36,844 nt of DNA, from NCBI GenBank assembly GCA_013115145.1, contig JAAPAO010000357.1, forward strand, positions 1 through 36,844, in the 5' to 3' direction. Position 1 is the stretch's first letter. Each line of letters starts with the position of its first letter. This stretch comes from Perkinsus chesapeaki. Taxonomy: Eukaryota > Perkinsozoa > Perkinsida > Perkinsidae. The notes under the pieces were generated by a model. It was not told the DNA's origin. It did no database searches and saw only the letters and a program-made list of their open reading frames with translations. Positions 7,301 through 36,707 of this stretch are shown here, piece after piece. A program made the position numbers and the translations under genes.

Positions 7301-10300
7301 CTATTGGTATCTTGTCACTCCACCACGCATCGCACCGGCAATCGTGGAAGACCAACCTGTGAGGAGGGAGGTACCGCCAACGGTTCGACGTTGTTGCTGC
7401 TCCGCCAGCTGCTGCGCTTTGACTGCCTGACAGATGACGCAGTTAAAGCAACTGCTATTGATTCGCTTTCGAACCTCATCTCTCATCCCAAGTGCTTCAT
7501 AGAAGCTCGCCACTTGTCGCATGTCCTTCTTGCACTTGCCAACGATCCCCTTGGCCAGATCTAATTGCTGATTTTCGATGAGGAGGGCTACGATGGGTTC
7601 GAAGCTGCGAAACGACTGACTAGTAACCTATAGCTTCGCTTACCCCATAGGTGGTCCTCCCGATCGGGCCGATCCATCCGCCAGCCGAACCAATTCAGGG
7701 AATCGCCTGGCCTTCACCAGGCATTCGATTGCAACTCTCCACCACCGCCTGTCATACTCTGGGAGGAGCTTGAATCTTGTAAGTAGCTTTCGAGCTTCCT
7801 CAACCTCGCCGATCGTTACCAGCCTTGCCACAGTCTCCCATAGTGACAAACCGACCAACTTATTCCCACCAGTACTCCACCCACGCATGATTGATTGCTG
7901 CTCTAATTGGCTTTGAATTTTACATAGTTCGCTCTCCGCTTCTAGAATAATCGCCGACTGCTGTGCCGCAGTGTCTCTCGTTAAACCGTACGCTGCTGAG
8001 AATTCCTCTCCAGCGCTTCGGAACATCTCCGTTGCATCCGATCTTGTAAGTGTGCGAATCGAGCTGCCCGAACCTCCGAACCGGCCCCACCAGCCTGCTC
8101 TCCCCTTCACTTCTTCATTTTCCTCAGGGGAGATCGGAGCGGTGATAGCCGTTCGTAGGGCAACAGCAGCTGAGTGCTGGGCACTGGTAGCTGGGCCTTC
8201 TAGAGCCCTCAGCACCGACTTTATGGCATCGTCATCTCGGAGGACTTGTCCTGTGGAATCTTGCTCCTCGCGCCATCGTTCCACGACCAATGTTGCAACC
8301 AAAGCATTTTCCTGGCTCTTTAGATTAGCTTCCTTGCATGCCTTCACCAATTCCTGAGCTGCATCCTCCTTGTGTCCGCTTGTACCGGCAAGGATAGTAT
8401 GAATGCACTGGTGTACCGAATCAGGACTGCCGAGCTCAGTGGCCTTCCTTAGGGCGAGGGCAACACTACCAAGACTGAGCAACAGACCGACGGTCTCGTC
8501 GGAGGCCGCTGGTAGGGCGCTCGACTGTTGTTGCGGTCGAGATTGCTCTTCAGATTGAGGGTAAGTTGAATCCAGTAAGAGATGGGATGCAACTGCGGGT
8601 CTGTTGTAATGCGCACAAAGACGAGCTATTATGGCCAGTGTGGTGACTGAATAGGAATCTTTGGCACTTAGGGATGTAGCTAGACATTGCTGAGGAAGGC
8701 ATCTGAGGTCGGAGACGGTAAGATACAAAATAGGTTAGCTCATGTTCACCTAAGCTTGCCCATGATTGCTGTTAGTATCTCCTTGTCTGTCATTCTAGTA
8801 GTAGATGGCCCTGCCAACAATGCCTCAACCCAGCACTCCACAGCCGGTGACGGATCACATCCAAGCCAGTCAGCTATTCTAATAAAACAAATAAATAAAA
8901 ACTACTATTGCCGTGGACACCGCATCCCTCACCTGAAGGCTAGTAACTGCTGCCCAGGTCTCTCAGCCACTCGAGCCACAACTCCTCTACAATTGGCGGC
9001 CTGTAGTAGCTTTAACTCCATCACCGAGGCTGGCATATACAAAGGAGCTTGTGCCAATGTGGCACTTACTCTAATATATGCTGCAGCTGTCACCATGCAT
9101 TGCGATATAGCTGCCATCCCGCCAGCTGTTGGCGTTGACTGGAGGAACTGCTTCCCAAATTGAGCCGCTTTCATCAGTCGACTGATTCTCTCTCGAGCGG
9201 CGGCAGTCATCGGTGGTGTCTCGGCCACAGCAGCCTCGATACAGCCAATCACCGCACGCTGTAGTTGGGCAGCAGAACGCTTATCACCTCTGAGAGCTCT
9301 AACGGACAGCTCGGCTCGGATGTCACCACTCTTAGTGTATCTTTCGTACGCATACGCCAATGTAGCTGGAGGAGATCTCGAACCAGAAATGAAGCCAAAG
9401 ACCGCCTCTGTAGAGGGGGCAACTCTCTGAATGAACAGTGTCTGGTTCAAGTCAAGTATCCTCAGACCATCAGCTTCTGTTTGAAGATGGACACCAGTGG
9501 GGAAGTCGAATGGTGGATCCAACCAATAGTCCAAAGGGTCCAATGTAAATGCTGGAGCCTGCCCACCAAGATATACAGTGTACCGCTCGTTCTTCAGATC
9601 TGACACACAGACCGCCACGGCGTCGTCGCCACACCAGACGAGTGACACCCTCGTGAAAGTCGACATGGGAGACGCAGCGTCGGCTATAGAAGAAGGGACT
9701 GGCGGACAGAAGGGGTCGGAATTTTGTGGCGCAGTGACTTTTGGCGCTCGTTTTTGGGCAGCCGCGAAATCTCCAGGAGTGATAACCACCGATCCTGTAT
9801 GCGTTGGTTGTTGTTGTGGCTCTGATGAGCCTGTCATTGATGGTAGAGGTTGATGATGATACTCTGGGCTGAGGTCGGGGGATGTCGGTAGGATACGAAA
9901 ACGACCACAATCGGATAGGAGGGCTATCTGAAAAGTAATGATAGCAACTCAGCAGGAGCAGCAGCAGCGCTGTAGAGGTTGATATGCTCCACCGTACTAA
10001 CCTCATGAAAAGTGGCTCTAGCAGAAAGATTGGTAATAACGACGCGGACGAGAATGGATCGACTCCTGCTCACCACCTTACCATGTGGGCAGAGAAGCTC
10101 TTTGCCATTGCAATAACAACCCCCTTGGGTCTCCTCCTCTCTTCATCATCCTCGGTGTTTGGTAATGTTAGGGCACCAGTAAGTATCTCCTCTTGGCGAC
10201 CATTCTTATCCAACAGCAGCAGCCTTCCACTGTTCTCTCCTATACCCCCGATTTTACCCACATTTTTAGATTCTTCCTCAACACTTATCAAACAACGTAT

Positions 10301-11749: not shown

Positions 11750-12226
11750 TCAACCGACGACTCTTCTATAAAAAACATACAAAATTGCAAGGCCAATGGC
11801 GATAGCAATAATGGTAAGGACCATACGATTAGCCATCGCCCGACGTGCCATCGTATTGATGGTTCGACGAGCCGTCGTCAAGTTACTATCGACTTCATTA
11901 AGGTTATTACCGGCACGTGATATCACTTCTCTTTGGGACCTGATGATGATGGTCGTGGTCATGGTGCCCATTAATGCATTGTTATTTATTAGTACCGCAG
12001 ATCTGACATAACTCCAACAGCAACATCTTCGGTCTCCAAGGCGGTCCTTTTGGCTTCGTGAAGTTGCTGGGAGCTATCACGCAACCTAGAAAGGAATCTT
12101 ACGACGGTTTCGTGCGTCGACATACATCTCAGTGGAGTCCATCAGCCTCTGTCTGTCCTCTTGGCGAGAACGCCCCTCCTCAAGCCTATTGCTGCCGGCC
12201 GATCCGCTATAACCGCGATTATCCAT
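11750..12226 (-). CDS. Vti1-type Qb-SNARE, compact form without N-terminal Habc domain
   Basis: Three exons, 12226-12126, 12085-11996 and 11939-11750 (introns 40 and 56 nt), encode 126 residues. The order is a short polar N-terminus (MDNRGYSGSAGS), the typical Vti1 entry (QRLMDSTEMLRDSSQQLHEA), a coiled SNARE motif (TEDVAVGVMSDLRSQREVISRAGNNL), then a C-terminal membrane anchor (VLTIIAIAIGLAILYVF) with a few lumenal residues. Vti1 proteins act in Golgi-endosome-vacuole fusion. Usual family members are 210-230 residues with a three-helix N-terminal domain; here the frame begins just before the SNARE motif, and only ~140 nt separate it from the GALNT stop, so no room for that domain is evident. 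VPS16 follows downstream on the same strand. Confidence 0.85.
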
Positions 12227-12302
12227 GTTGAATAGCTCAACTGGTAACTCTCCACGTTAGTATAATGAAGGGCGTTGGTTCGAACCCTTGCACAGTGAAC
12301 AT
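12225..12302 (+). other. Degenerate tRNA-like element in the GALNT-Vti1 spacer
   Basis: The plus strand has an A-box-like TAGCTCAACTGG (12233-12244) and a B-box GGTTCGAACCC (12277-12287) at tRNA-like spacing, with ATGTT/AACAT at the two ends. The D and anticodon stems do not pair, so a working tRNA is unlikely. It overlaps the Vti1 start region and resembles intron family A. Confidence 0.5.
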
Positions 12303-12368: not shown

Positions 12369-14502
12369 TCAAGCGTAAGGATACGCATCTAGGGTCAGCG
12401 AAGTGTCATAATCTGAAATGAAAAAATGCCTCTCCCGGGATTCGAACCCTGGACCTTCAGCCCTTACCCATCGGCAGCAACCCTCTTGACTTGAAGACAT
12501 CTTCAAATCGGTTCATAAACCAATTGAATGATTTACATTGTAATTCTTGCCTTAATGCCTTCCTCTTAGTCACATCACCCATACCATTTAGCACCTTATA
12601 TGCATGCTCATCCGTTTGATAGTACCTCAACAACTTATTGTCAAACCGCCAAGATCCTCGAAAATCTTACCTATCCTTCCACTCATCAAACCATACCTCC
12701 ACTGTACCTAATACACAATCACTCATTCTCACGCGCCACGAAATTCACCGCGCCTTACGAATCTTGTTAACATACACTGTGGTGTCATTAACCTTATAGG
12801 GGAACTTGGGACGGAAGAGATGTGCAACTCGACTGTCCCGAGCAACAACAATCTCACCACCACACATCCAAACTCGAACCTAACACCAACGAAAACGGTA
12901 TGCATGAATCGCCTCGCTCCGCTTGCTTACTGATTGCTCAATATTTTCAGCACCATATAGAAGCATATCATAGTCATACTCTCCAGACTCATGCCACCAC
13001 TTTTTGGTAATAGCGTAGAGACCGCCACTCATGACAGGAACCTTTATGGAGATATCCAATGACCCAGGTTCGATCCCCGGCAGCGACATACCTCATCATT
13101 ATGATCTTCAAACCAGCTAAACTGCAGCCCCCAATCGAACATCATTTTAACACCTGGCTCATCTCCTTGGACCTGGCAACCCACCCTCTGGTGATGCCTT
13201 TAATGGAATCCTATTACCTCCCACGTATCACCATTAAGTCTCGGTATCAACGGCACGACCAAACGTTTGTAGTTCTCATTCGTGTGTTTGAACATCGGAC
13301 GCTCCCAACCAGGAGAGGGTTTAACATGGCAATCGAGGAACATTACCTGAATTTCGTGGCGCAGTGAAACGAAGGAGGACGCAGTCTTTGAAAGCCAGTC
13401 CTCAGACTGGTATCCGGTAATAAGTATTACCATATCTCCCACTGCAGCATTAGCACCAGCCATACGAGCTCGAATCAATCCTTGGGACTGCTCATGACGG
13501 ATGAGACGGACCTGTTGTTGGAAGTTGTTGTCCGACTGATTGCCGTTAATATACAATCCACATGAAGGTTACGTAATGCTGTCTAATACGATCGGTGATG
13601 CCCACCGAGGTACTTTAAGCCACAGCTGTCCCTCAACACCAATGATGAAATTTACGGATGATAGGGGAATTGAACTACTAGTATTGAGAAACTTGCAACC
13701 GGCGGCACTGGGTTAAAAGATTGCATAACACCGACATGAGGTGCAATGTTCCGTGCGTTGAGCACGAGAGCGGTGCCAATAACACATGCCTGACAAAGGC
13801 TTCCAATTTGTATTAGTTACATCACCAGCAATGAGAAGTTATGATGGCTGGTCCCTTTGATTTCAAGCCCCCTGTCGCCCATAACGTTTCCATCCCCCGT
13901 TACCGAGAGTAAGTATCCCCACGTGAGCGACTGCTGCTGCTGATGGTGGTATCCCCCAAAGGTTATCGGTTCATTACCTTATCCCTATATTCAGCAAGTA
14001 ACGGCTCCATAGGTGGTATAGAACCATCATCCACCAAGATAACCTCCTTCAATCGACGACTTGGGGTATTCTTAAACACCGAATCAACGGTCCCTAATGA
14101 GGGAGGGAGAATGAAAGTGCTTATAGTGCAGAAAGGGGATCATTTCATGGGCCTTCACGAACCCCTGCTTAAAAGGGGCAAGTAACACTCCTATTGCAGA
14201 TAAGTGAAATGATACGAGGAAGAGCAGATGCATTCATTCTGAGCTAAAGATACGTTCTTACTGTAAAGATATTTATGCTCATTCCGTCCGACCAATACAA
14301 CACTCATCGTTTGAATGTGTGTTGGCCAATGTAACGACTGTGCGCCACCTGGAGGAGTCCAAAGGGGCTCGAAGGAGGAGGGTGGTTCGGTGGATATGAG
14401 GGCACGATGAACCCACTCATCTGCGGTAGAGGACATCAGAATCGATGACTGAATGCCGAGGAGGGCTGCTAGCAGGAATGGATAGGGAACTGAAAAGAGC
14501 AT
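12369..14502 (-). CDS. Polypeptide N-acetylgalactosaminyltransferase (GT27), no lectin domain
   Basis: Ten exons join in phase: 14502-14262, 14093-13978, 13511-13431, 13346-13218, 13172-13092, 13041-12931, 12879-12759, 12707-12671, 12625-12468 and 12412-12369 (372 residues). A hydrophobic N-terminus (PFLLAALLGI) suits a Golgi signal or anchor. GT27 landmarks appear in order: SVVLVGRNE, TVDSVF...EVILVDDGS, GLIRARMAGANAAVGDMV, FLDCH (metal-binding DxH, residues 151-153), MMFDWGLQFSW, VPVMSGGLYAI, the VWMCGG block, HLFRPKFPY and LQCKSFNWF. It would start mucin-type O-glycosylation by moving GalNAc to Ser/Thr. It ends without the ricin-type lectin domain found in animal enzymes. Five introns carry repeated motifs (two A, two B, one C), and the 466-nt second intron holds a further A-like block near 13660-13690. 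Confidence 0.88.
12413..12467 (-). other. Family-A intron, sense (GALNT intron 9)
   Basis: 55-nt GT-AG intron carrying GAAGGTCCAGGGTTCGAAT and CCCGGGAGAGGC followed by a six-T run and TTTCAG. This is the layout of a tRNA 3' half: T arm, acceptor 3' strand, Pol III-type terminator. Confidence 0.8.
12708..12758 (-). other. Family-B intron, sense (GALNT intron 7)
   Basis: 51-nt intron with AATTTCGTGGCGCGTGAG in the transcribed orientation. The flanking exons restore the GT27 frame (KIR/TVEVWF). Confidence 0.85.
12880..12930 (-). other. Family-C intron, sense (GALNT intron 6)
   Basis: 51-nt intron containing GCGGAGCGAGGCGATTC shortly after the donor. The exons on either side read IEQS and VRVWMCGG, both conserved in GT27. 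Confidence 0.8.
13042..13091 (-). other. Family-A intron, antisense (GALNT intron 5)
   Basis: 50-nt intron whose B-box runs on the plus strand (CCAGGTTCGATCCCCGG), opposite to transcription. It splices just before the conserved VPVMSGGLYAI. Confidence 0.8.
13347..13430 (-). other. Family-B intron, antisense (GALNT intron 3)
   Basis: 84-nt intron ending in TCACTGCGCCACGAAATT then CAG, i.e. motif B reversed and abutting the acceptor. It also holds a small hairpin (CCAGTC, loop TGAG, GACTGG). Confidence 0.8.
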
Positions 14503-14503
14503 C

Positions 14504-14911
14504 TTAAAGTTGACCGTGCAAGATACAAAAGAGGTTACTTGATGGTTTCTTTAGCCGATAATCATCGGTTTGATTCCAATGTATAGCCAACATAGCATAA
14601 GGTGATAGAGCTGCCAATAACAAAGCAAGTCCTCCAGTGACAGCACCATCAACCTTAGATTCATCCGATAACTTCACAGAGGCCAATCCGACACGATCCT
14701 CAACTGGCAGGCCAGCATCGGCGAACGGTGTGGAGAGCCACCACTCTCTTATCCACATTTTCCAAGCCCAAACAAGCAGCATTGGTATAGCTGGTATCAA
14801 TAGTCGAATGATAAGGTCTTTAGAGGATGCTATATAGGAATCATCAGGCAGGGCGGGCTCAGAGGGCTCGGAGACTCGAGGGCGACGAGCTTTACGGGTT
14901 GAGGGCGGCAT
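14504..14911 (-). CDS. Hypothetical protein with two membrane helices (possible 5' part of the GALNT gene)
   Basis: 135-codon frame: a basic proline-rich N-terminus (STRKARRPRVSEPSEPALP), a helix near residues 33-50 (RLLIPAIPMLLVWAWKM), a polar loop and a second helix near residues 91-110 (GGLALLLAALSPYAMLAI). No family was recognised. The frame stops one base before the GALNT ATG at 14502. Alternatively a 49-nt GT-AG intron (14538-14490) joins it in phase to the hydrophobic start of the GALNT, making one protein with three N-terminal helices. Sequence alone does not decide between the two. Confidence 0.5.
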   Translation of the reverse strand: MPPSTRKARRPRVSEPSEPALPDDSYIASSKDLIIRLLIPAIPMLLVWAWKMWIREWWLSTPFADAGLPVEDRVGLASVKLSDESKVDGAVTGGLALLLAALSPYAMLAIHWNQTDDYRLKKPSSNLFCILHGQL

Positions 14912-15434
14912 GAAAAATTAATGGAATGACTGGAAAAGGTTTACCTCAATAGATTACTACAACGGAGTTCAAGTGTAAAGAATCTGAGGAAAGTCACCCT
15001 ACAACTTTCAATAAGGGCCACCACACTAGCATAAAACTACGCTGGTAATGGAAAGGACTCGGGTTCGAACCACACAGGGGGCATTTCTCTCCCAGAAAAT
15101 CCAACATTGTTTTTTTGCGGTGGTCCGCTGCAAGATACTATAATGGGGCTGCGGATCATCCCGGTACTAAATCCGATCACTCCGGCACTATGACCCTTCA
15201 TGAGCTTCCATGCTGCCGTCAACGGAATGAATTATATGACAATGCTTTTGAATGCACTTTTAACGTGTTTAGTGACAGTTGGCAAATACAACGGGATCGG
15301 CGGCGGCCCGACACTGCAGAGGTACTGACTGCGGGGTTCTGATTAATCGATTCTCGAGAATGTTGGTATGAAGAGGAGGGGAGTACGTAATTGATGCTTG
15401 CTTAGTTTGGGTTGTTTCATTTATTATTATTATT
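14912..15434. promoter_or_regulatory. Divergent intergenic region between minus- and plus-strand blocks
   Basis: About 520 nt between the start of the two-TM ORF (minus) and the start of the Sec16-like gene (plus), hence probably a bidirectional promoter. A B-box-like GGGTTCGAACCA sits at 15061. On the minus strand 15222-15000 contains short frames (GVIGFSTGMIRSPI) that could be exons of a tiny gene; I could not close a full structure. Confidence 0.35.
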
Positions 15435-18400
15435 ATGACGTCGTGGTTGGCTCGACTTGGCGGTAAATCATCCTCTGAGGAGGAAGAGCCAGCAACGGTT
15501 GCACACATGGGGGAGGCTAATAAAATGTAGTATCTAAGGTTGAACCATGCAAGATACGGAACAGCCCAAACTCACAAGGTACTATGATGAGAAACGTAAA
15601 CGATGGGTTGAGCGAGGAAAGGAGGATGAAATTGAGGAAGAAGAGGAGCTGAAGCCTCCCCCACTGGCATTCACCAAACGCGAGGTACGTTAGTGTGTTT
15701 CAGGGCCATAGCACTGGCTTCGGTGTCGGAATATATGATAGCTCACCATATGCGTACACAACCACAAGGGGATAAGACAACTACATATAGTACTGGGTAA
15801 CCAACACTGCAGCAGCAGCAGCCAGCAGATGTTCGTGAAAGTCTATCCTGGAGTCGACGGGGAATACACCACTTCCTCTACGCGCTCACTTTTAGGCTCC
15901 AGCCGACTCGGCACCGGCGACGGGAGGTACCGATTTCATGGCGCAGTTGACAAGACCAGTGGCACTGGGCTCAGGTAATAATGAATCTTAGGTTGAAGCA
16001 TGCACCGTATCTCTTAGCTCGATCACGGTACGTTGATCCCTTTGCGAGTATGGGGGCTGCTAGTTCATCATCGTCTGAGCCCCCGGCCAGCAAAGAGCCC
16101 CCGAAACTCCTGCCTCCGCCCAATCCATTCGGAGGTGAGAGCCTTGTTTCAGTTTCCAGCTTCCAAGTATTTTCAGGACTGTTACCTGGTCCGCCAACTT
16201 TAGCTGAAGAAGGAAATGATGATGAGGTGATAAGAAAAGGGGGAGGGTTGAGTGATGAAATGGGTGACAGGAATCGACCTCACCGAAGATTCACAAGGTT
16301 GAACCGGAAGAAGATACGTCTAAGGTTCATGAAGTAAGGATTCTCGAGGCGAACGGGTATAGTAGCTGTCCGTCAGCTTCCTTGTTTTGGGTCGCATCTT
16401 GGAATCTCGACTGTCAAATTCGTCCTTACTCGTGGTGGGACTTGGACGTAAAATGTTCATTGGAGTTTCATTCGAATCTTCCTGTACTTACATACCGAAA
16501 GCGCGACGTACTCCTCGGCGCGAGTAAAAAAGCAGTATGGATGGGGAAGCATAGTTCCTCGGACTTGTGGGAAGTTTGGTAGAATTTATTGAAACACTCG
16601 TATTCTCGTGATGTTACCCGATTACATATTTTCAGGAAACCGCTCCACAGGCTCCAGCAGCAGCGGAGCCCTCAATGCCCCCAGTGCAGGCTAAGGTAGT
16701 AAGAACGGTATTATGTGGCGCGTGACGATTGGGACCAATGGACACTTGTGATCTACCGAATATTCATCCGGCATTAGGCTGATAAGATACGCGAAAAGAT
16801 GGGATAATTCCCGCGATTCCTCTGCGGTAGTATCTTTGACCACTCCTGACGTACGTCGGAAGGGTAGGTGTTCCTCCTCCTCTTCCGAGGTGAGCCCGAT
16901 CAAACCCACTCCTACTCCAATGGTCTCGTTGCACTCGCAGCTCATCGTAGAGGATGTTGTGGATGACTTAATGGTCATCTGGGATGCTGGAAAATTAGGA
17001 TTATTAACAACAAACTTAAAGCAAAACATCGAGCTGAATGTTAAATCGTTAATAATGAATTTCGGCCGGATTACTGTTTGTAGGAGGCAATTGTGTGTGG
17101 AGTTTTGTGGCGCGCGACTTGGCTGTTGGCAGGTAGAGTCACCTCCGTTGCCACCGCAAGACTCGGAGACCATCCAGCGACCACCGAAGGATGAATCTTT
17201 GGAAGAAGAGCCTGATAGATCTGATGGTGGCGATGATGATGTTTGGGAGGCTCCTGCATGGGGACAGGAGATAACTCCTCCCGCAGCAGTTGTTGAAGAG
17301 GAGGCGGAGCTGGACTTTGACGATATTCTGGGAGGCAACGCTTGGGAGCCCGAGAATAAGATTATGGCTAGCTCACCACAGCTGCGGGAGAGGGAAGCTG
17401 AGGTGCCGAGCAGCCCTGAGAGATTTTCTAATGATAAGGCAACCGCGTCATCACCTTTAAAGGTGCATTTGCGGAGCGAAGCGATTTTTTTTATTTAGTT
17501 GTTTTAGGCGGCTTCTGGTGGTGGGAGAGAGGAACAACTTGGATGGGGCGCGTTATTGTCGAATGACGAATGGGCAGAGCATGAGAGTGGATGGACGGTG
17601 GTGGCTGAAGATAAGGGTAAGGATTGGAGAAGGGGAGACAGACATTGTGTAGCGGATTGCAGGCAACGAAGGACAGGAGGAAGAAGAAAAACAAACGAAT
17701 GACCGCGCGCCAGGTAATTGAGGTTTCTGGTTCGGTGGGGAGCAACGGTATGATCGGTTAATAGGCATTGAATTCAGAGACGTCCTTTCGAGCGATTGCT
17801 AAATAGGATTGTTAAATCGGATTAGAGGGAGCTTACTTTACCGTAGGTGCAGCAGCGTCATCGTCACCCATGGCATCAGAAGTAGGCAAGGAAGAAGGGA
17901 AGGAGGAAGAAGGTACTGAGAGGGAGGCAGGTTAAAGGGAATTTAAGGAGGTTCAATACTCATACTATGACACTGGTTTACCTTTCTATAATTAGCTCTA
18001 TATAATTTCCATTTGCATCTGAAGGGTGTTGTGGGTGGTCTTAGTAAAGAGTAGGGAGCGCTTAACAGAGTAAGGGAAAGGGATGACGGGAATGATAGGA
18101 CTCTGGCCGCAGGGCGATCTCCCGGGATGGTCGGGAAGTCCATCAGGGGAGCTGTGATAAGTTATGAATATTAGAGCTTGGGGGGACCTGCGGCTTTGTT
18201 GATGAAATGGGTTTGTTATTCGGAGGTTGCAGGTGCACCGTCATCACCGACACTAGAAGCCTCTGGAAAATATAGGCAAGAGAAAGAGGGTAGTATCGGG
18301 TGACAGGATGGAGACCGCCGCCGCATTTATTAGTTCACTATTGAAGTAATGTCGTTAGAACTGATCTGATGGGAGGGACGCTTCGGGTATTTTCTTATGG

Positions 18401-21509: not shown

Positions 21510-23297
21510 ATGGCTAATGAGGTCGATGATGATACTCTAATGAAAGATTTGCCGGACTTCATTCGAACTCGCGACAGAGAGGATATCCTGGCATTTGTAC
21601 AGAACTTACTCAAAGCAAAGAAGAAGCAAGAGGCGATGGTAACTTATAATTTTGAGGCGCGCGGTTTTTATTCATTTCCTTTGCTAGTATCAATCTCGAA
21701 TGGAAACTGGTTCGGTGTATTCCCAGAGGTCACGATCGGTGATGCAAACTCGAAATGCCGGCGGACGAGGCCAACAGGGGGGAGACTCCTCATCGCCGGC
21801 ATCATCGATAAGCAGGATACGTCGAGCCGGAAGCAGTACTAATAAATGGTAGCGAGTCATCATGCTTCGCTCCGTCGGCTCCGTATTTTTATTTTAGGCA
21901 ATCCAAGAGGGGAAATCGGTCGTTTATGTCGGGGCCAAGTCGATCATATCCAGTTCGATCATTCCATCGGTTGATGGAAGAATATGATAGCGACGATGAT
22001 GATGCTGGCAGAGATGATCTTATTTGCTCACCGGAGGGGGGTGCCGACACTGCTGCAGCATCGCCTACGTCCGACATGGACGATAGTCATCTGTCCGAAA
22101 TTCACAGCAGTTCAGGTAGATCAAACGTAGCGGCTTATCGAGAATTGATTATTTTTGGTTGTTATTCCTCAAATAATACTATTTATCAACCTTTGTGAAT
22201 TATTATCACCTTTCCTTGTTAGCATTGATTGCTCGCCTCGACTATCTCGGTAACCAGTGCCAGTACTCGGTACCATCATCGACGGGTAGAGAGGAAACAG
22301 AAGCAGCAAGAACGACGCTTGAGGATGGTGCAACATCGACCGATCCAGCGGTTGCTTCGGCTTTCGCCAAGGTGAGATGCCGCCGCTGGGAATTTAACTC
22401 GGATGGTTTATTTTTAGACTATGGAAGTGATATCGTTTTCGTGGGACTCGTCGGCGTTGCCACGAAATCCCCTTTTGACGAAATCGACGCTTTTTAAGGC
22501 CTTCTCGTATATGCCTGCCAAGCTGGAGGAGGTAGAAGTGTGCGCATGCGTGCATAATACCATACTTCCCTTCGCTGATAACGTCAGTTACTGAAAGGCT
22601 CTACAAGGTCACCTTTGTCGAGTGGGATGCAGCGACAGGTTCGAGCGATGCTGGGCGCCATGTGGAATATCACTTTAAATGAGGATTCATCAGAAAACCC
22701 GATACTTATTCAAGGTTACATCTCTGCCTCCGTCACTGCGCCACGAAATTCCTTCAGGATCCGAGCTGCTGCCGAGTTTGGTACAGGTTCTGGCGCGTTA
22801 TTCGGTCGATGATCGTGACATATGCAAGAACGCATGTGGCTTGTTATTAACACTCATGACGAATGATAGCAAAGTGAGGGGAACGCTGCAAAGAAAGACA
22901 CTTTTCTTGCGGGGTGATGGCGTTCCGTAATTGTGTTATTATTTCAGTTGTGTCGGGATTTCCTCGCAATCGACGGAGGGCTCAGCGTCCTTACTTCAGT
23001 ACTCAGAACTCACAAGTTCGAACAGGAAGATGCAGCAACTGAGCAAGTAAGTCACGCGCCAGGAAATTATATCTACGATGTCTTCCTTGTCAGGCGTTGC
23101 AATGTATTTTCCTCCTCGCTACGGTGGTGCCCGAATGTCGTCCAACGATCGCTAGCCAGATTGATCGATTCACTCTCGATCGGTTGCAGGGCATCAGGCA
23201 TGCCTCGAGGCTTAGAGATATACTATATCGATCGTCATCCTCGTCGAACTCGAAATCGAAGTTTTTGGCGCCCCCGGTGCCGCCGCGTCACCAGTGA
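21510..23297 (+). CDS. Armadillo/HEAT-repeat protein with disordered N-terminus
   Basis: Nine exons join in phase: 21510-21638, 21688-21848, 21898-22115, 22223-22371, 22418-22531, 22588-22714, 22758-22873, 22948-23046 and 23094-23297 (438 residues). The first ~150 residues are charged and low complexity (RMETGSVYSQRSRS, EEYDSDDDDAGRDD). From about residue 255 helical repeats of ARM type follow: RQVRAMLGAMWNITLNEDSS, ELLPSLVQVLARYS, CKNACGLLLTLMTND and ATEQALQCIFLLATVVPECR. The C-terminus is Ser-rich, ending PPVPPRHQ. Such proteins act as binding scaffolds; the partner is unknown. Four of its eight introns carry motif B or C in both orientations, and a fifth folds into a hairpin. The start is the first ATG after the acceptor-like ATTAG at 21473. 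Confidence 0.75.
21639..21687 (+). other. Family-B intron, sense (armadillo gene intron 1)
   Basis: 49-nt intron with AATTTTGAGGCGCGCGG starting 9 nt after the donor; acceptor TTTGCTAG. Confidence 0.8.
21849..21897 (+). other. Family-C intron, antisense (armadillo gene intron 2)
   Basis: 49-nt intron with CATGCTTCGCTCCG, the reverse complement of motif C, then a T-rich tract and TTTTAG. Confidence 0.75.
22715..22757 (+). other. Family-B intron, antisense (armadillo gene intron 6)
   Basis: 43-nt intron with TCACTGCGCCACGAAATT next to the acceptor CCTTCAG, almost the same end as GALNT intron 3 on the other strand. Confidence 0.85.
22874..22947 (+). other. Hairpin intron (armadillo gene intron 7)
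   Basis: 74-nt intron in which GGAACGC (22880-22886) pairs with GCGTTCC (22920-22926), and inside it GCAAAGAAAG pairs with CTTTTCTTGC with two mismatches. The splice signals lie outside the stem. Confidence 0.75.
23047..23093 (+). other. Family-B intron, antisense (armadillo gene intron 8)
   Basis: 47-nt intron beginning GTAAGTCACGCGCCAGGAAA, motif B reversed directly at the donor; acceptor CTTGTCAG. Confidence 0.8.
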
Positions 23298-33365: not shown

Positions 33366-33423
33366 CAACCTAAAGATACCACTATCACAGCGGAGCGAAG
33401 CGATTCACGAATACACATTTTCA

Positions 33424-33788
33424 TTACCGTGACAGTTTGGTGACACCTTTACGATCAACCAACAAATCAAACACTGAAGAATGCAGTAATAAATTTTGCA
33501 TGCTTTCTGGGAGATACACCAAAAGCCCTCTTGACCGAACCTGCCAATAATTCCCCATGCCGGGTTCGAACCCGCGACCTTTCGCATGAACTTACTTTGC
33601 AGTATATCCCGACCATCATAACACTCGCACCAACCATCACTGCAATCACTAGAGGGTAATTCACGACTATCTAATCATCACACACAGACACGATTATCAT
33701 ACCAATTCTCGCGCGCCACAAAACTGACTTTAGCCAATACTCCCAAAACTCCTGCAGCAATCGAACCGACTCCAATCCACTGGAGCAT
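33424..33788 (-). CDS. 83-residue membrane protein split by one B and one A intron
   Basis: Exons 33788-33729, 33670-33596 and 33540-33424 join with both introns in phase 0. Residues 1-20 (MLQWIGVGSIAAGVLGVLAK) and about 26-43 (PLVIAVMVGASVMMVGIY) are membrane helices, followed by a short soluble tail (LPESMQNLLLHSSVFDLLVD). No family recognised; the helix pair and size suggest a small organelle membrane protein. The intact frame and closed phases make the gene and its introns believable together. Confidence 0.7.
33541..33595 (-). other. Family-A intron, sense (83-residue gene intron 2)
   Basis: 55-nt intron with CGAAAGGTCGCGGGTTCGAA and a perfect 12-nt palindrome GGGTTCGAACCC. The donor is GTAAGTTC, the acceptor TTGGCAG. 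Confidence 0.85.
33671..33728 (-). other. Family-B intron, sense (83-residue gene intron 1)
   Basis: 58-nt intron starting GTCAGTTTTGTGGCGCGCGA, i.e. motif B begins at the donor itself; acceptor ATGATTAG. Confidence 0.85.
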
Positions 33789-34207
33789 TGTTAAATCATC
33801 AACCACAGGAAATAGCAAACTTAATGACACTATACCTGTGAAAATATGGCATTACCAACAAGATCTATGACAATGGGGCATTCAGCAAGAGTTATATTAT
33901 GATGAAATGGATAATATATATTAATTTTTATTACAATTGATCACTAGTCAGGATTATGACCTAGATGAAGCTAAACATCGGTGGAGATCAGCTTCCGAAT
34001 GGTATGAGTATCGAGTTCAACAACCCGTTCGCGATAACAAGTTATAGGGGGTGCATCTCAACTGAATGAACGCCCCGAATTGTATAGAGAAAGAGAGGTA
34101 GAGATTAAATCGAAAAAATACTGTTATTAAACTAACATCACATTGGTAGTGTAATAACGTATGAAATATGATACATTTTACACTGCAAGTCGCAATAATC
34201 TCCAAGT

Positions 34208-34703
34208 TCATAGTTCATCCGCCCTTGTCCTATTACTTCGTCTTTTTTTATCTTCATTAAACCTACCGCTCCTCTCTGCAACCACCACCTGTGAGCTACT
34301 TCTTCTTGGGATGGTGGTGGTGGTGGAATCTATCGATGAACTTGGCGAATTCATCACATCTATCTTTGGTGGCATAATAATCTTAGAATGCTCTCCCGAG
34401 GCCACGCCGAACTCAAGAATTTGGAAGTCAGAAAAACAACTGACCGGTGGTGGGTTACATCAATACTGAGGGTTAAAAGGAGGTGGGCGCGCACTTTGAT
34501 TGGGGTCGAATTGCGGAGCGGACGGAGGACGCTAAGAGGGCAAAAGATGATGCTAGGATAATAACTGTAATGAAATGGAATATAGAAATCCAAGCCCTTG
34601 GAGAGAGTGTCGAATTTAAGAGTTCATTCGGGTCTGTTCGAGAGGGGCGGCAGCTGAAGTTTGAAGCCGTCTGATACTACGGGATACAAATTCCCCGATT
34701 CAT
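34208..34703 (-). CDS. Putative secreted or anchored 105-residue basic protein
   Basis: Exons 34703-34688, 34564-34495 and 34439-34208 (introns 123 and 55 nt) keep phase and give a signal-peptide-like start (MNRGIF, then IILASSFALLASSVRSA) followed by FSDFQILEFGVASGEHSK and a Ser/Thr- and Arg-rich tail (RSGRFNEDKKRRSNRTRADE). The third exon is the best supported part. The proposed ATG overlaps the stop of the preceding gene by ATGA, so the first exon needs transcript proof. Confidence 0.4.
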
Positions 34704-35135
34704 GGTCCAATGGTCCATTGCCTACTGTGTAATTGCTGTTCCCCCCCGCTGATGGCCATTGTTGTGGGCCGCCGTAAAGGACCTTGAAGTGGAATTGTGT
34801 GAGGCGAGTCCAGTGAATCATTTACTATGTATTGAGTCGTCTGTGGATGATGAACCGGTCGAGTGTGGCGTCGACGACGATGGCAGCAGCAAACTATAAG
34901 TATAACCAAAAGTAACTAATTAATTTCGATGCCGAGGAACGAACCCACGACCTATCGATTACCAGCAGGAACCCGTCAAATCGCTTGTCTTCCAAAGGCT
35001 CCAACAAATACGCCAATTGCCCAGCACGTACATCTATCATCGTCACAGTCACGCGCCACGAAACTACCCATCACTACCTTCATAGGCTCCTCTCACGCTT
35101 GTCTTGTCTATTCCTTCAATCGCACTTTCAGTCAT
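34700..35135 (-). CDS. 114-residue single-pass membrane protein split by one B and one A intron
   Basis: Exons 35135-35078, 35033-34963 and 34915-34700 (introns 44 and 47 nt) give an N-terminal soluble part (SVRGAYEDVRAGQLAYLLEP), a membrane helix assembled across the second intron (FDGFLL + LLLVILIVCCC), a stop-transfer run HRRRRH and a polar tail. No family recognised. The Leu/Ile/Val/Cys helix followed by basic residues predicts the C-terminal tail is cytosolic. The gene lies 126 nt downstream of the FkbM-like stop. Confidence 0.65.
34916..34962 (-). other. Family-A intron, sense (114-residue gene intron 2)
   Basis: 47-nt intron with AGGTCGTGGGTTCGTTCC, then AAATTAATTAG. Removing it fuses the two halves of a single membrane helix. 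Confidence 0.8.
35034..35077 (-). other. Family-B intron, sense (114-residue gene intron 1)
   Basis: 44-nt intron with GTAGTTTCGTGGCGCGTGAC and acceptor GATGATAG. Confidence 0.8.
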
Positions 35136-35233
35136 GAAATCATAAGAAAGGAAATTAACAAGCTAAAGCAGCCTCGTCAAGTGAAGTAACACAAGGATAT
35201 GTGCTGGTTACGGAAATGAGGCCAAATCACGGT

Positions 35234-35249
35234 CAGCATGCTTCGCTCC
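35234..35249 (-). other. Motif C in the spacer after the FkbM-like gene
   Basis: CGGAGCGAAGCATG in the 126-nt gap between two minus-strand genes. The same block lies in a spacer on the plus strand at 33388-33402. Confidence 0.6.
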
Positions 35250-35260
35250 GCTGTATAGCC

Positions 35261-36707
35261 TTAGAAACCCCATTGGACGTATTCGATACCTTGATCAAGC
35301 AGATCTTTGATGATGGCATCTTGGCGAGCCTTGTGGTCAACTAAAAGATATTTTAAAGGTCAGAGTGATGCCCTCTATAATTACACCCTTTGATTTTCTT
35401 TACGATTTTTCCATGCCATTCGATCGCAACCCACTTGACTCTCCCCCTCAAGACGCCCGAGTCCAGCAGGTGCCTTACGACTGTATACCTAAAAACGCCG
35501 CTTAGGGGGATTGAACCCACGACCTTCCCCTCCATAAACCAGCACTACTCCGCTCCCTCTATGTCGACCTTCAGAAACACCGTCTGACGATAACCTTCTA
35601 GAATAACCCTTTTGATCCATTCGACGAAGTCAATAACGCAGCCGTCGGTCTTCCATTCACCTACGAGAGACGGCTACTACGCAAAAGTGTAACTACTGAC
35701 GGCCCATCAGACGATAAGACCAAAGTAGATGCCACTCAGGTAGAACTAGAACTAATCCAACAATGAACAAAGTACCACTACTGACATACAATAATTTGAG
35801 ATCAAGTACATTTAACTGGTTGAATTAGTTCATCCGTCCCTAGTGAAACTGACCTTGTTTTTTCTCCATAGATATCCTATCATACAAGCTAGTACCAACA
35901 GACTTATCCTTTCTGGCATTCACATCTTTTCTATCACTTCTATCACGCACAGTAATGTCATAAAAGTACCTACACCGAAAAGTAGGAGTTAGATTTACCA
36001 ATTGCATCTATGATTTCTAAGGAAAGATATTATAAATCGGGTCCTATTGAACCGCCAGCGATATTAAGCCATATAGGTCAACACGAGGATGCCAGCACTA
36101 CTATAAAGTAAAATAGTAAAATTATTGTTCCAATATACCGCCTTATAGTAAGAAAATCTACACAGTGCGATCGCTTATAAGATTCTCCCCTCACCCGACG
36201 GTCTTGGTAGCATTCCAAGCTCCGGCTAGGACGACATCGCAACGAGCAAGTTGGGCAAAAGAGTCACATCTGGCTTGGAGGTCGTCCTTCCATAAAGGGT
36301 TGAGCTCGAAAAGATACGCCTCCCACTCGTTAAGCTTAAGATCTTTCTGAGGTTAACTTGGCAATCCCTTGCTGAAAAGATATAATCACCTCGCCGAGTT
36401 TGTTGGCGGAAAACTCCTCGAAGAAATATTTAAGAGATGATCCATCGTTGGCGCCAAGGTCTATGTAAACCTTCCGGCCACGTGAGCTCACGGAATCCGC
36501 TGTAGGGCCGATCAAGGCACGGGAGCTACACTCGTCTAGAGCATCTTGAGGTTGATTCGCGTAAGATACAAAATAGGTCGAGTTCAGAGAGAAAGTTTTG
36601 AGGTAAGTGAAGTCTGGTCGGTGATAATTCCATACAATGCAGATGCATCCAATGACCCCCAGAACTATCGTCAAGGGGCTCACAAATGTCGAAGGTCCGT
36701 TGGACAT
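35261..36707 (-). CDS. FkbM-family methyltransferase-like membrane protein
   Basis: Six exons, 36707-36390, 36346-36195, 35969-35854, 35660-35549, 35488-35385 and 35340-35261, join in phase to 293 residues. Residues ~8-27 form a signal anchor. The SAM-binding motif is KVYIDLGANDGSS (residues 79-91). It is followed by EWEAYLFELNP, VVLAGAWNATKTVGYFYD, VGTSLYD, the family hallmark VFLKVDIEGAE then YTVVRHLL, and VKWVAIEWH. FkbM enzymes O-methylate sugars and similar groups; the acceptor is unknown, and a Golgi-lumenal role is inferred from the anchor. Introns are 43, 225, 192, 60 (family A) and 44 nt. The ATG at 36707 is the first in frame. Confidence 0.85.
35489..35548 (-). other. Family-A intron, sense (FkbM-like gene intron 4)
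   Basis: 60-nt intron containing GAAGGTCGTGGGTTCAATCC, then CCCTAAGCGGCG and TTTTTAG. It splits the hallmark VDIEGA-E-YTVVRH, so its limits are certain. Confidence 0.9.

Follow-up and report, generated by a model that had tools for sequence, protein, structure and literature searches.

The 36,844-nucleotide (nt) stretch of Perkinsus chesapeaki DNA analysed here (contig JAAPAO010000357.1, hereafter the window) carries five very short predicted spliceosomal introns, here called family A, that are built on a block resembling the 3′ half of a transfer RNA (tRNA) gene. These introns are probably descendants of short elements derived from tRNA 3′ halves, and would form an old, diverse, introner-like family. 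The element would span approximately the anticodon loop, the variable loop (V-loop), the T-arm with its B box, the 3′ strand of the acceptor stem, A73 and a T-run of the RNA polymerase III (Pol III) type. Perkinsus is a single-celled relative of the dinoflagellates and was placed among the alveolates in a taxonomy look-up. All genome-wide counts refer to the whole assembly (GCA_013115145.1; 35.4 Mb in 884 contigs).

GT...AG segments were present for all five introns (5/5), all on the minus strand. Three of them, 12413-12467 (55 nt), 33541-33595 (55 nt, copy L003) and 35489-35548 (60 nt), are sense copies that read GT...AAGGTC, T-arm (12435-12451, 33559-33575 and 35504-35520, respectively), seven letters and a stretch up to the AG. 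In 12413-12467, which is also matched by the strict genome-wide pattern AAGGTCNNGGGTTCGANNCC, AAGGTC and the T-arm are followed by GAGAGGC, A, a run of six T and CATTTCAG. In 35489-35548 the acceptor-like 7-mer precedes GTTTTTAG, and the AG of 33541-33595 has no adjoining T-run. The fourth sense copy, 34916-34962 (47 nt; T-arm 34932-34948), is decayed, and 13042-13091 (50 nt) is an antisense copy with its T-arm on the plus strand at 13064-13080. A candidate sixth block (GTAATGGAAAGGACTCGGGTTCGAACC...ATTTCTCTCCCAG) lies at 15045-15095 on the plus strand, with a loose T-arm at 15058-15074; here, the intron scorer favoured the antisense reading. The original prediction had ascribed AAGGTC, a TTCGAAT-type loop and, in sense copies, often a T-run ahead of the AG to these introns. 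AAGGTC indeed occurs in the first three, but 34916-34962 has TAGGTC and the antisense copy has the V-loop ATGAC; the loop is decayed in 34916-34962 (TTCGTTC) and reads TTCAATC in 35489-35548, and a clear T-run is restricted to 12413-12467 and 35489-35548.

The same prediction had called all five reading-frame joins secure, which we can support for two by comparison with P. olseni proteins that are themselves gene predictions. Across 13042-13091, the joined sequence WFEDHNDE/VPVMSGGLYA corresponds without a gap to WFEDGNDEVPVMSGGLYA in predicted P. olseni proteins, one letter off, and a Symbiodinium protein is gapless here as well; in the alignment, the template, a solved GalNAc-transferase, carries additional residues at this position. 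Across 35489-35548, VFLKVDIEGAE/YTVVRHLLDSG is unbroken in the predicted P. olseni proteins P0043 and P0046, with one letter differing past the join; P0044 and P0045 diverge ahead of it. The FkbM domain (PF05050) crosses this join with 23.1 bits in a 72-residue fragment (cut-off 22.7) and with 21.7 bits, under the cut-off, in a longer one. The remaining three joins are open frames only: splicing of 12413-12467, the last intron of the GalNAc-transferase model, carries the frame on to a stop, and splicing of 33541-33595 and of 34916-34962 connects open frames.

Considered alone, the window makes a weak case, because its five loose T-arm blocks (four of the introns plus 15058-15074; 34916-34962 was missed) compare with an average of 1.6 across 20 first-order resamplings, and a single resampling likewise gave five. 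A genome-wide excess of the block was found when each pattern was compared with the same pattern read backwards, in counts that take in true tRNA genes. The V-loop plus T-arm word AAGGTCGNGGGTTCGAACCC, with one mismatch allowed, had 79 matches vs 0 for the reversed pattern, and AAGGTCNNGGGTTCGANNCC had 69 vs 0. The combination of GGTTCGANNCC, ten letters and ATTTTTAG, again with one mismatch, was found at 147 places (31 of them exact) vs 0, and the B box followed by eleven letters and TTTT at 575 vs 0, while the B box alone matched 2,432 times vs 566. Among the 79 AAGGTCGNGGGTTCGAACCC matches, 30 were obtained as loci and 35 more were fetched; 14 were left unfetched since their words resembled tRNA-Leu or tRNA-Asn genes already seen. 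The 27 additional matches from AAGGTCNNGGGTTCGANNCC contributed 25 fetched places (C368 was not fetched and one match lies inside the window), and 20 of the 31 exact GGTTCGANNCC...ATTTTTAG places were fetched together with 20 of the 34 places of another search, whose reversed control gave 5. The fetched DNA contained 90 distinct copies, 13 inside tRNA genes called by ARAGORN (Asn, Leu, Val) and 77 outside them. L117 and perhaps L098, both among the 77, are apparently full-length tRNA-like sequences uncalled by ARAGORN.

Scored by tRNA numbering and the invariant positions of tRNAs, the 77 copies have the layout of a tRNA 3′ half. Information begins near positions 33 (T, 53%) and 37 (A, 62%), continues through V-loop and T-arm, is almost nil at 66-69, and comes back at 70-73 (G, G, C/T, A) to end in the T-run, with little common sequence 5′ of position 33 or 3′ of about 79. 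The 3′-half invariants (C48, T54-T55-C56, R57, A58, C61) and the T-run past 73 are present in the copies. T54 to C61 belonged to the search pattern in most sets, though not in 20 loci retrieved solely through the upstream word TAANCGAAAGGTC, 16 of which have TTC(G/A)A in place. U33 occurs in 41/77 and A37 in 48/77 copies, or in 33/69 and 35/62 if copies bearing a GT there are excluded; as A37 is still found in 35/62 copies where 35-36 is not GT, this signal is not merely the 5′ splice site.

Since the 77 copies were pattern-selected, we also examined a cleaned incidental set of 53 B-box blocks that lie outside the window and match no whole-element search word. It replaces an earlier set of 69 blocks, which held window copies, pattern matches of neighbouring loci and double readings. 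C48 was present in 42/53 (p 2e-17), Y60 in 49/53, Y72 in 46/53 and A73 in 36/53 (p 4e-10), and each of positions 74-77 had T in 29 to 34 of the 53 blocks. TTTT began at offset 31 in 11 blocks and at 32 in 7, and no other offset between 24 and 45 was represented by more than 3 blocks. The same spacing, with TTTT starting at the tRNA 3′ end, was found in 210 non-tRNA B-box blocks: 74 had offset 31 and 56 had offset 32, and no other offset between 20 and 49 was represented by more than 10 blocks. Of the loci behind these blocks, 20 had been selected by the ATTTTTAG word. The proposed order, that of the 3′ end of a tRNA gene with its Pol III terminator, was thereby recovered as V-loop, T-arm, 7-nt acceptor space, A73 and T-run, and the anticodon loop left fainter traces at positions 33 and 37. 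An A box with up to two mismatches lay upstream of 41/42 tRNA genes but of only 18/131 copies, and in 14/224 controls made by shifting the copies. Most copies therefore represent 3′ halves, and a few may be longer.

The copies depart from genuine tRNAs in their pairing. Whereas pairs 49:65, 50:64 and 51:63 are formed in 45/45 tRNA copies, 130 elements form them in 35%, 66% and 65%, which lies inside the range of 300 shuffles (means 40%, 60% and 59%). In sense copies, positions 49 and 65 most often carry G (59/81 and 51/81, respectively), a shared feature that is not tRNA-like; exactly four of the five T-stem pairs are formed in 50 of these 81 copies, and four or five in 57. Compared with 19 real tRNA 3′ halves of the genome, a set that lacks many isotypes, copies agreed at 15.65 of 26 free positions vs 15.71 for decoys with swapped acceptors, and 152 of 200 decoy sets matched the copies equally or better. 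Assignment of copies to tRNA isotypes was accordingly negative with the 19 available halves. A search for tRNA-Ser genes by their 5′ end word yielded 26 matches, all with two mismatches and several of them coinciding with Leu genes. The unpaired G49/G65 in most sense copies and real 3′ halves that match no better than decoys speak against a conversion of individual functional tRNA genes, and a tRNA-derived repeat family fits better than such one-by-one conversion.

Within a copy, adjacent segments of the element are linked to each other, e.g., 49-51 with 62-65 (r 0.197), and two pairs of GGTTCGANNCC...ATTTTTAG places share every variable letter between B box and T-run, from which the existence of lineages follows. 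The linkage also opposes the idea, raised by the unpaired stems, that 5′ and 3′ parts came from different tRNAs, which was rejected.

Many of these copies fall within predicted very short introns. By a simple score combining splice sites and open frames, the 77 copies in sense orientation exceeded 360 random places (p 5e-10). With a median of 4.25 they also exceeded 42 tRNA-gene copies (median 3.42, p 0.001), which are the fairer control because they too carry T-runs. The 23 cleaned incidental copies (median 4.30) likewise scored higher than random places (p 0.002) and higher than tRNA genes (p 0.013). A YAG shortly past the T-run was found in 48/104 copies vs 10/45 tRNA-gene copies (p 0.004). 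Sense candidate introns that are 40-62 nt long and score at least 4.2 occur in 28/77 copies, and some predicted introns consist of the element almost entirely, such as those of L010 and L106 (44 nt), L091 (42 nt) and L014 (40 nt). A codon-usage model was too weak for use.

For a Pfam test (E up to 0.1), 20 spliced fragments were chosen by eye as protein-like from 46 candidates. L078 has a Sec7-like HUS domain over the join (8.6e-20, above the cut-off). Response_reg over the join of L110 (5.4e-5) and zf-MIZ for L111 (5.1e-7) are below the cut-off and suggestive. In L093 an ABC domain (4.1e-12) stops two residues beyond the join, in L090 a domain (5.9e-19) adjoins it, and matches over the joins of L067, L010 and L076 (0.06-0.07) are at chance level. 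Together with the GalNAc-transferase and FkbM joins in the window, that of L078 makes three predicted joins that are firm; the two of L110 and L111 are suggestive. We infer from sequence that family A copies would be spliced. As to the suggestion that the T-run doubles as the polypyrimidine tract, it could serve so in many predicted very short introns, but in the window it is clear in just two.

Several observations weigh against a family of elements inserted as ready introns. Antisense intron scores were not above those of random places (p 0.97), and part of the sense excess over random places stems from the T-run, because the score rewards T-rich 3′ sites. Frame openness by itself does not tell copies from random places and was dropped as a stand-alone test. 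For ten of the 20 spliced fragments, Pfam returned nothing at E up to 0.1; the better-scoring splice of L111 stops short of the T-run (4.4e-6 for the splice including it), and XPG_N in L070 (0.0024) is as weak as PIF3 in L089 (0.0023), which we take for chance. The Rfam tRNA model stayed under its threshold at 40/40 tested loci, with one sub-threshold tRNA match and sub-threshold tmRNA matches at three others; across the window and six further 10-kb stretches, the Rfam scan returned a single tRNA gene, truncated where L061 ends, and otherwise sub-threshold matches. In the 28 introns searched there was no target-site duplication, as no direct repeat exceeded the 95% shuffle limit. Unlike after a recent burst, near-identical copies were not found among 123 copies, the best listed pair agreeing at 38 of 46 positions. 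A mixture model gave one class by the Bayesian and three by the Akaike information criterion. In the 53-block set, R37 was no commoner than expected by chance (27/53), and the U33 signal was weak (22/53, p 0.013). Finally, the copies have a slight excess of A boxes over their shifted controls (p 0.016), and some may therefore be remnants of longer elements.

With these points taken into account, we propose the following course of events. A tRNA-3′-half element that inserted in sense into a gene would be almost a ready intron, its T-run and a following AG providing the 3′ splice site and a GT in or close to the anticodon arm the 5′ splice site. In some antisense copies (L005, L015, L016), the AG could be the complement of C32-U33. 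Copies would then have diverged and decayed over time, retaining what splicing needs. As the T-run is absent from mature tRNAs, DNA or a precursor transcript is argued to be the source; the halves may have been produced by a cut in the anticodon loop or by truncation of a longer repeat. Insertion is probably how these introns arose, and we infer that the elements spread in several lineages, as a family of repeats, rather than through conversion of single tRNA genes. The wider statement, that tRNA 3′ halves repeatedly became ready-made spliceosomal introns, about 45 nt long and in both orientations, with the Pol III terminator turned into the polypyrimidine tract and the end of the anticodon loop into a splice site (the 5′ site in sense copies, the AG of the 3′ site in some antisense copies), is tentative, and we consider it possible rather than probable.

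Other origins would produce similar blocks. Different functional tRNA genes, or 3′ halves of pre-tRNAs cut in the anticodon loop and still bearing the 3′ trailer, might have been captured singly, each becoming an intron. A start near 33 and an end in the T-run suit such a pre-tRNA half, the variable positions are those differing among tRNAs, the lack of near-identical copies agrees with independent captures, and some copies resemble the 3′ half of tRNA-Leu (L015 and L092 at 21/26, L068 at 20/26 free positions) or, with a GCAGG stem, are reminiscent of tRNA-Ser. However, decoys with swapped acceptors match equally well against the 19 distinct tRNA halves, the G49/G65 mismatch is frequent, and pairs 49-51:63-65 behave as in shuffles, so that we regard single capture as unlikely. 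Similarly unlikely in our view is that tRNA-derived repeats landed in existing introns, which then shrank to little beyond the repeat. The very short introns of this genome make shrinkage plausible, and the tRNA 5′ side is absent while predicted 5′ splice sites are scattered from about 25 to 42 in tRNA numbering; but introns of 40-46 nt (L010, L014, L091, L095, L106) leave scant room for older sequence, and an AG directly 3′ of the T-run recurs at the 31 exact places.

Two further explanations were considered. Extra-TFIIIC sites exist in yeasts, and the blocks could be B boxes retained as TFIIIC-binding places that are tolerated in introns. The conserved B-box core between variable stems, including TTC(G/A)A in the upstream-word loci, is what this explanation would lead one to expect, yet it predicts neither A73, Y72 and the T-run at exact tRNA spacing nor intron ends matching the block, and we think it very improbable. 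That the blocks have no common origin at all, short introns favouring small hairpins whose T-arm look arose by chance or convergence, accords with the loose T-arm count in the window and with the other short GC-rich words borne by other predicted introns. The genome-wide counts against zero in the controls, the exact spacing, and letters in loop and flanks for which a hairpin has no use contradict it, as does the pairing, which is not conserved; it is the least credible of the explanations considered here, and hardly to be expected.

Two of the family A introns are housed in the C-terminal part of a polypeptide GalNAc-transferase gene (12369-13529, minus strand), for which seven introns are predicted: these two, two with a GTGGCGC word, one with GCGGAGCGAGGC and two others. 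For one of the seven, 13173-13217, an alternative, more distant end is possible. The spliced protein is a polypeptide GalNAc-transferase, and its closest relatives include predicted P. olseni proteins that are 87% identical to it over 64% and 51% of its length. Intron 35489-35548 lies in an FkbM-methyltransferase-like gene (35261-36707, minus strand; exons drawn by eye, ends approximate), whose protein has four relatives, every one from P. olseni, with 62-79% identity. Just beyond the 3′ end of the GalNAc-transferase gene, in intergenic DNA, the plus strand carries a degenerate tRNA-like sequence of full tRNA length (12226-12301, extent by eye) with an A box without mismatches and a B box, uncalled as a tRNA.

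Additional words recur in the window. TTT(C/T)GTGGCGC was found at 9722-9732, 12733-12743, 13352-13362, 17103-17113, 22738-22748, 33713-33723 and 35053-35063, with at least two copies inside predicted GalNAc-transferase introns, and TTTYGTGGCGCG occurs 718 times in the genome vs 5 reversed; a further intron family may be marked by this word. The third such word, GCGGAGCGA(A/G)GC, was located at 12911-12922, 17471-17482, 33390-33401 and 35240-35251, in predicted introns (12880-12930 and about 17463-17507) and elsewhere, and GCGGAGCGAAGCG has 410 genome occurrences vs 0 reversed. In the GalNAc-transferase gene, predicted introns of all three word families, including family A, sit side by side. 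The word AAGATACAAAA with (T/G)AGGT directly after it was seen at about 8720-8735, 14520-14535 and 36563-36578. Open frames 1-582 and 1222-2457, on opposite strands, encode a nearly identical protein stretch (VDIFQEMQSTDPEEPCTKCPGYLD...) and form an inverted duplication. Elsewhere in the genome, the B-box places C74:18561, C94:29594 and C236:81 share ...CCNACA(A/T)CAAA(C/T)ATTTTTCG and may be a tRNA or repeat lineage of their own.

The origin of new introns has long been an open question. An intron family derived from tRNA, if true, would mean that Pol III signals can act directly as splicing signals. With tRNA genes and pseudogenes, family A shares V-loop, T-arm, A73 and T-run, but it mostly comprises the 3′ half, the base of its T-stem is usually unpaired, and it is uncalled by ARAGORN or Rfam. 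A full cloverleaf with A and B box was not encountered in the copies, the full-length-looking exceptions being 12226-12301, L117 and perhaps L098. tRNA-derived short interspersed nuclear elements (SINEs) resemble it in tRNA descent, conserved B box, lost cloverleaf pairing and many copies. SINEs usually bear the 5′ tRNA part with both boxes, whereas most family A copies lack an A box, and family A has no common body or tail past the T-run. A SINE was reportedly involved in the rice catalase case, which together with maize Dissociation represents transposon insertions that are spliced out as introns. Such insertion is a known intron source, with 35 events in four genera tabulated in the review PMC3443670, which cites both cases, as compared with hundreds of family A candidates in a single genome.

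The closest known kind are introners. According to Gozashti et al. 2022 (PMC9860276) and, for Amoebophrya, PMC7789003, these are introns across a genome that share sequence reaching nearly both splice sites, occur in several families per genome and have aquatic hosts including alveolates; most introner families are read as the outcome of DNA transposition (PMC9860276). A word search of the main text of PMC9860276 found neither 'tRNA' nor 'SINE' nor 'Perkinsus', and a tRNA-derived introner family was not found in searches of an open-access library of incomplete coverage. Many predicted family A introns of one genome may, like introners, share sequence up to nearly both splice sites; they differ in that their unit is a tRNA 3′ half, that the copies are highly diverged and that no target duplication was found. 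Judged by their sequences, family A introns are candidate introners, and if this is true they would add a source unlike DNA transposons to those known.

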